A DNA stretch of 37,635 nucleotides. Origin: Acidobacteriaceae bacterium. Its GTDB lineage: Bacteria; Acidobacteriota; Terriglobia; Terriglobales; Acidobacteriaceae. Position 1 is the first letter of the stretch; each line of letters begins with the position of its first letter. Shown in pieces: positions 28,825-29,649 of this stretch. The position numbers and the translations under genes were made by a program. The stretch is from NCBI GenBank assembly GCA_003166855.1, contig PMUM01000256.1:1934-39568 (forward strand), written 5' to 3'. A model generated the notes under the pieces. It had not been told where the DNA came from, made no database searches, and saw nothing but the letters and a program-made list of their open reading frames with translations.

Positions 28825-29649
28825 ATGCCGGACGCAACGGAACGCCGAAGGAACACCGCGCCCTGGTGGGGACTCTTGTTTGCCCTCGGAGCAATCGGCT
28901 GCAACGTCGCATTCTTTGTGAGTCCTCCCTTGCAGGGAGCACTTCCTTGGCTGAGCGTTTTGTTTGGCGTCCTGGCTTTGGCCTTTCTTGCCACCGGACT
29001 GCGGCGGGCGTTTGGCCGGGCGCATGTCTATCGCGGTAAAGTGCTGAGCGTTGTATTGACCGTGATTGCCCTGTTTCCCCTCGGACTCACCGCGTTCGCC
29101 TTCGTCAAAGCCCGCGAGCTGCCCAGTTCAACGGCGGCGCCACAGGTTGGGCAGAGGGTTCCTGACTTCACTCTTTCCGATACTTCGGGGAAACCGGTAT
29201 CGCTCGACCAACTTCTCGCCGCGGCTCCGTCTGCCTCTACTTCCCAATCCCAGGCTTCGGCTCCCAAGGCGGTATTACTGATTTTCTACCGCGGCTACTG
29301 GTGACCTTTCTGTGACCTCGAGTTACGAGGTGTGGAGAAACGGCTAGCGGAGTTTCAGGTGGCGGGCGTACGTCCGGTCGCGATCAGCGTTGATGCGCCT
29401 GAGGTGTCGCGCGATCTGGCTCACAAAGCGGGATACACTTTCCCGATTCTTTCTGATCCCGATACCGCGGTGACTCGGCGCTATCACTTGCTGCATACGG
29501 GGGGCGGGCCGGATGGGCACGACATCGCACGTCCAGCCGAGTTTCTGGTGGACTCATCCAAGATTGTTCGCTGGAGCAATTTCACTGAAGACGTCCGCGT
29601 CCGAGCCCGCGCGGACGAAATGCTGGCTGCTGCCAAGCAACTGCGCTAG
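28825..29649 (+). CDS. Membrane-anchored peroxiredoxin-like selenoprotein (in-frame TGA)
   Basis: One continuous 274-residue gene interrupted by a single TGA at 29302-29304. Residues 1-100 hold three membrane segments (GLLFALGAIGCNVAFFV, WLSVLFGVLALAFLAT, VLSVVLTVIALFPLGL). The AhpC/TSA redoxin domain follows: VGQRVPDFTLSDTSGKPVSL, VLLIFYRGYW, TGA, PFCDLELRGVEKRL, VAISVDAP and FPILSDPDTAVTRRY. Relatives have Cys at the TGA position (GYWCPFC), the peroxidatic residue, so Sec160 would give a U-x-x-C active site. The frame, spacing and homology are intact on both sides. The ATG has a short GAGG upstream. The alternative, a nonsense mutation, is disfavoured by the hairpin at 29315-29331. selA/B/C/D are not in the window. 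Confidence 0.82.
29315..29331 (+). promoter_or_regulatory. Candidate bacterial SECIS hairpin
   Basis: ACCTCG (29315-29320), loop AGTTA (29321-29325) and CGAGGT (29326-29331) form a perfect 6-bp stem. The apical loop begins 16 nucleotides after the TGA and has G as its second base, followed by U. Both match the general bacterial SECIS pattern recognised by SelB. The hairpin is within the coding sequence, as in bacterial selenoprotein mRNAs. Confidence 0.68.

Follow-up and report, generated by a model that had tools for sequence, protein, structure and literature searches.

Selenocysteine (Sec)-containing proteins related to peroxiredoxins (Prx) are known from several bacterial sequence surveys. 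A Prx-like family in which UXXC replaces TXXU was described in a 2005 study of the Sargasso Sea (PMC1088965), and an ocean survey lists a family 'Prx-like 1' with 225 Sec and 2,740 Cys members, alongside Prx-like 2 and 3, for which it describes fusions to unknown domains (PMC2398784). A 2026 review includes both a 'Prx-like thiol:disulfide oxidoreductase' (PF00578, UxxC/UxxU) and a 'Redoxin family protein' (PF08534, UxxC) (PMC13188914). For Acidobacteria, a 2006 count gives four selenoproteins in three families (PMC1794560), and deep-Sep reports three known selenoprotein genes in the acidobacterial Occallatibacter riparius (PMC12013277). Here we describe a gene from an Acidobacteriaceae bacterium, carried on a 37,635-nucleotide stretch of contig PMUM01000256.1 (assembly GCA_003166855.1; hereafter the window, whose own numbering is used throughout), that almost certainly encodes a selenoprotein, judging from conservation across homologues, and in which a UxxC redoxin domain follows three predicted membrane helices.

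The gene and the conservation of its UGA codon

The gene lies at 28825–29649 (+) and, read through, would give 274 residues with Sec at position 160. Its layout agrees with an earlier note, made from the sequence alone, which had reported a single 274-codon frame broken by one TGA: an ATG at 28825 is followed by 159 sense codons, the TGA at 29302–29304 (+), 114 sense codons and a TAG stop at 29647–29649. The read-through product contains FYRGYW-U-PFC, the putative Sec160 opening a U-P-F-C motif in which Cys163 (29311–29313, +) is its partner. The Pfam AhpC-TSA match (PF00578; residues 108–250, 6.4e-27, 94.4 bits versus a cut-off of 26) crosses the TGA, bearing out the note's claim of homology in the same frame on both sides, and the peroxiredoxin-like domain as a whole covers residues 103–274 (29131–29646, +). 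The start codon is the same in the near relatives L061, L032 and L033.

Homologues were sought in 200 genomes of the order, scoring the best 12 candidates in each, and by profile in 396 genomes of the phylum, scoring the best six in each, so that lower-ranking Cys forms could be missed. The order search, together with L061, yielded 15 long-form copies including that of the window, to which the other 14 are 40–95% identical; all 15 have one TGA, at the same codon. L061, on contig PLBY01000079.1 of Acidobacteriaceae bacterium isolate palsa_252 (95% identical), was the only locus returned by a scan of genome contigs. The phylum search gave 20 near-full-profile matches, beginning no later than query position 30 and ending no earlier than 260; two of them were already known, and every one has a single TGA and no other stop, and none has Cys. 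The 33 long-form copies read (L031–L044, L061, L064–L080 and L083, the window's included; L036 runs off the end of its contig, and L073 has its membrane part in a different frame) share the TGA at the Sec160 codon, the UxxC motif, Cys163 and Trp159, each in 33/33, and the TGA is therefore not a chance event. This favours the selenoprotein and U-x-x-C reading of the earlier note, which had also proposed asking whether Cys or Sec stands at position 160 in close homologues: the Sec codon is found in all 33 long forms, and Cys in none.

Not among the copies read are a match in G498 (11–265, with a single TGA) and fragments in G109. Just beyond the long-form limits lie matches in G410 (30–248, two TGA) and G362 (45–263, no stop), the latter being L089, a 228-residue Cys protein that lacks the three helices. 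Cys at the Sec position occurs only in distant homologues that have no three-helix part, namely L053 (aligned), L054, L089 and L090. In the tree the long forms fall into two clusters, of 26 rows (92/93) and 7 rows (98/91), separated by a weak branch (26/90).

Downstream of the TGA, the ratio of non-synonymous to synonymous substitution rates (dN/dS) is 0.05–0.11 for the window copy against L061, L032–L035 and L038, and 0.12 for L032 against L033, with 0.12–0.28 upstream of it (five pairs computable); several dS values exceed 1, so the ratios are rough, and sound only for L061, L033 and the pair L032–L033. Such low values after the TGA argue that the 3' part is not dead.

Translation table 11 divides the gene, as the earlier note expected of standard callers, into a 159-aa fragment and a GTG-started fragment of 105 aa. 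The window protein exceeds no NCBIfam cut-off (the 14 other long-form orthologues, compared by E-value only and not by bits against cut-offs, reach 1.2e-14 at best), and an Rfam search of the whole window gave no match at gathering score. As the gene is split into two false ones and passes no NCBIfam cut-off, annotation is likely to overlook a probable membrane selenoenzyme of the phylum.

A conserved hairpin downstream of the UGA

Bacterial selenocysteine insertion sequence (bSECIS) elements are characterised, in the legend to Fig. 2 of PMC13188914, by a loop of 3–9 nt with G in its first two positions, an upper stem of 4–16 bp, a UGA-to-loop distance of 16–37 nt and a minimum free energy no higher than -7.5 kcal/mol. 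The candidate bSECIS core hairpin of the window (29316–29330, +; stem CCUCG/CGAGG, loop AGUUA at 29321–29325) starts 11 nt after the UGA and agrees with these published constraints in its 5-nt loop with G second, its stem of 5–6 bp and its 16-nt distance to the loop. Its folding energy is -8.5 kcal/mol for the 21-nt core (equalled in 0/200 shuffles) and -11.8 kcal/mol for 39 nt (7/200).

Pairing is complete in the 15 orthologues (75/75 cells), with seven cells in two pairs changed on both sides, and falls to 33–56% when the stem partners are slid. None of 500 shuffles matches the real alignment in the number of paired cells, the number of double-changed cells or the covariation score, values that, like the Fisher value given below, overstate independence because the genomes are related. 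When the proteins are held fixed and synonymous codons drawn, stem and AGUU loop arise in 0.45–1.2% of draws per sequence, against 15/15 real genes; the Leu167 codon is TTA in 11 of the 15 and TTG in four, although seven genes of the window use TTA for 2.7% of their leucines. The lowest-energy fold contains the core hairpin in 13/15 orthologues when 63 nt are folded, and in eight of ten further copies with the same loop (L064–L073) when 51 nt are folded.

The second branch, L074–L080, has another hairpin, CUGCAA-GGU-UUGCAG, recognised by eye in six of the seven copies (with a variant in L079) and present in the lowest-energy fold of four (L075, L077, L078 and L080). Its loop stands 24 nt after the UGA, 8 nt further downstream than that of the window, and the protein motif is unchanged.

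Selenocysteine machinery and tRNA-Sec

The search for selA, selB, selC and selD suggested in the earlier note succeeded for three of the four genes in the window's genome (6.94 Mb in 479 contigs; completeness 93.38, contamination 6.27). Matches over cut-off were found to selB (373 bits, cut-off 242), selA (423 bits, or 533 including a neighbouring match in frame) and selD (339 bits), each on a contig other than the window's; only the last 21 bases of selC were recovered (C289:523-543). Within the genus, 20 of the 26 genomes carry a complete tRNA-Sec gene scoring 64–72 bits; the nine of those 20 on which ARAGORN was run were all returned as tRNA-SeC (tca), anticodon UCA. Three sister genomes (G087, G070 and G135) hold both the redoxin gene and a complete tRNA-Sec, and with the G087 tRNA-Sec as query the window's genome gives only the exact 21-base remnant (L120, + strand). 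That match extends 7–10 bases into flank common to the sisters, and the sequence ahead of it shows no relation to the tRNA; the remnant looks like the mark of an element's insertion at the selC 3' end, possibly an attachment site, and a complete selC would sit in an unassembled part of the genome.

The best RF01852 match in the window's genome (L015, C396:8474-8562, - strand; 49.6 bits versus a gathering score of 47) was rejected as its tRNA-Sec(UCA), as both the Rfam alignment and ARAGORN give the anticodon UUC and sister genomes carry a different, complete tRNA-Sec. L015 and the sisters' L114–L117 and L119 are tRNA-Sec-like tRNAs with sense anticodons (ttc, gcg, gcc and gaa by ARAGORN) that score above the Rfam tRNA-Sec threshold, and they resemble the allo-tRNAs reported from Acidobacteria in PMC7609411.

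SelB is over cut-off in 14/14 genomes of the order with the long gene versus 73/186 others (Fisher 4.6e-6, uncorrected for kinship). Where the best match in a genome of the order has one TGA, SelB is over cut-off in 42 of 44, the exceptions being G023 (73% complete) and G118; where it has no stop, SelB is present in 9/27.

Membrane anchor and genomic context

The N-terminal fusion to three membrane helices put forward in the earlier note agrees with the AlphaFold2 model (mean predicted local distance difference test score 87.5), which places helices at residues 12–32, 37–64 and 72–97 (coding part 28858–29115, +), and with hydropathy maxima. Hydropathy peaks number three in 25 of the 33 long forms and two in seven, with none in L073. 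Lys and Arg number 3–5 in the loop joining helices 2 and 3 (15/15 orthologues) and 0–2 in the one joining helices 1 and 2 (the 14 orthologues that include it), a distribution that favours an N-terminus in the cytoplasm; the 2–5 Lys and Arg residues in the segment following helix 3 weaken this. On hydropathy and charge, then, the redoxin domain probably lies outside, facing the periplasm.

Among residues 1–111, only Phe31, Gly58 and Pro100 are shared by 28 or more of the 33 copies. Redox residues in the membrane part were considered and rejected, no conserved Cys or His being present among residues 1–111 in the 33 copies.

The flanks of 28 loci (usually 1.5 kb; 4 kb for L061) were searched with seven neighbouring genes, and no partner or donor protein was found by this comparison. 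Matches were confined to L061, L032, L033 and L034, apart from a single TonB-type match (32% identical) beside L075.

Active site and probable chemistry

The earlier note had placed the TGA exactly on the peroxidatic cysteine, and here the alignments disagree: against AhpE and same-genome paralogues, it is Cys163 that corresponds to the peroxidatic Cys, and Sec160 to the Thr of TxxC and the first Cys of CxxC. The Pro, Thr and Arg positions of peroxiredoxins are occupied, in the sequence alignment, by Arg156, Sec160 and Pro237, and the PxxxTxxC/U motif and active-site Arg of catalytic peroxiredoxins are accordingly absent from the window protein. Pro237 (29533–29535, +) is Pro in 31/33 long forms and in TlpA-like paralogues, and Arg in peroxiredoxin paralogues and AhpE. 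Four same-genome paralogues, called TlpA-like from their WCPPC/WCGPC motif, align the first Cys of CxxC with Sec160 and a Pro with Pro237.

As Sec160 and Cys163 form a UxxC pair, a selenol/thiol-disulfide oxidoreductase is the most likely activity, its chemistry resembling that of TlpA/ResA and its scaffold that of peroxiredoxins. The hairpin would guide SelB and tRNA-Sec in inserting Sec at UGA 160, as the conservation suggests; the three helices would anchor the product in the cytoplasmic membrane, with the peroxiredoxin-like domain, on the charge distribution, probably periplasmic; and Sec160 would attack and Cys163 resolve, the enzyme reducing disulfides, and possibly peroxides, outside the membrane. 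Stated in full, with side and chemistry included, this account of a membrane-anchored UxxC oxidoreductase is favoured with some reserve.

The strongest competitor is a true peroxidase. In this reading the same Sec-containing membrane protein would reduce, outside the membrane, hydrogen peroxide or organic hydroperoxides; either Sec160 or Cys163 would attack, and the remaining residue of the pair would resolve. In its favour, and against the oxidoreductase, the protein has the peroxiredoxin fold and its nearest fold matches are true peroxiredoxins; opposed to it are the replaced Pro, Thr and Arg positions and the presence in the same genome of two redoxins with TGA on the peroxidatic position itself (TPGU in L002, TGGU in L003). 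A peroxidase is thus possible, if on the unlikely side, and from the pairing 'peroxidase or oxidoreductase' in the earlier note the second term is retained as the default and the first as an option.

These two further redoxins with in-frame TGA lie at C51:6545-6934 (+) for L002, which has a hairpin CGCGG-GUU-CCGCG after its UGA, and at C28:1299-1673 (-) for L003, near whose UGA no clear hairpin was seen. In another genome, a 487-residue frame (L050, G095:C38:74610-75098, +) joins a UxxC redoxin part to one that is presumably metallo-hydrolase-like, on the strength of an HYHLDH motif.

Other readings of the UGA codon

Several observations count against Sec insertion and deserve to be set out together, along with the rough dS values and the kinship of the genomes given above. 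L042 (G081:C17) contains an additional TAA, in frame and 13 codons downstream of its ATG, and L073 (G267:C292) is split between frames; apart from these two, the scattered stops in sister copies that the earlier note named as telling against it were not found. In the hairpin, three of the five pairs are invariant across the 15 orthologues, two of five measures (those counting pairs or types) are equalled by 259/500 shuffles, and the core is missing from the lowest-energy fold in L034 and L044 (2/15) and in L068 and L071 (2/10 of the further copies). Finally, the earlier note's other refuting result, absence of selB/selC, is answered by half: selB is there, but no complete selC was found in the 93%-complete assembly of the window's genome, which slightly lowers the confidence placed in a selenoprotein.

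Decay of the gene, with the TGA an ordinary premature stop and the fragments its relics, would draw on the damaged copies, the incomplete selC and the fact that standard translation ends at the TGA; it is rejected on the TGA shared by 33/33 copies, the dN/dS of 0.05–0.12 after it and the conserved, covarying hairpin, with selA, selB and selD also present, and merits hardly any credence. Equally far-fetched is suppression of the UGA with another amino acid, or production of the fragments as two separate proteins, for which the GTG-started 105-aa frame and the odd tRNA-Sec-like tRNAs of the genus could be cited, though none of those given to ARAGORN reads UGA: a bSECIS lies where SelB needs one, table 11 leaves the other seven window genes, those from which codons were counted, open, and a downstream product beginning at residue 170 would be without the motif and the preceding strand.

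Comparison with known systems

A literature search short of most subscription papers, and not extended to a comparison with the fusions in PMC2398784, turned up no membrane-fused acidobacterial form; within that compass, the membrane-anchored form of the known Prx-like UxxC kind seems undescribed. We tentatively suggest, at a little under even confidence, that the long forms are a distinct group, in Acidobacteriota, of three-helix-anchored, periplasm-facing UxxC redoxins existing in the Sec form only, with the hairpin re-sited in L074–L080, and serving a membrane redox task beyond the reach of Cys. The absence of a Cys form is a point worth following: should the always-Sec pattern hold, it would offer a natural case for why sulfur cannot replace selenium.

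Among the closest known systems are the Prx-like thiol:disulfide oxidoreductase selenoproteins, which share with the window protein the family PF00578, the UxxC motif and a bSECIS after the codon (PMC1088965, PMC2398784, PMC13188914), and from which it differs in the three membrane helices placed in front. Where Prx-like 1 of the ocean survey includes 2,740 Cys members (PMC2398784), no Cys form stands among the 33 long-form copies. AhpE, the 1-Cys peroxiredoxin of M. tuberculosis, has Thr at the place of Sec160 and Arg116 at that of Pro237, and contains no UxxC, its solved chain being without membrane helices. The SelL-related redox protein family NF040769 has a similar domain around the motif (residues 141–224, 1.7e-10), but the window protein scores 40.9 bits where the cut-off is 120 and has a single Sec (UxxC), whereas SelL itself is UxxU. 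With the ResA/TlpA oxidoreductases (NF002854; 41.4 bits, cut-off 170) it shares, via the TlpA-like paralogues, the CxxC position and the later Pro; it departs from them in having Sec for Cys, three helices where ResA has one, and best fold matches among the peroxiredoxins.
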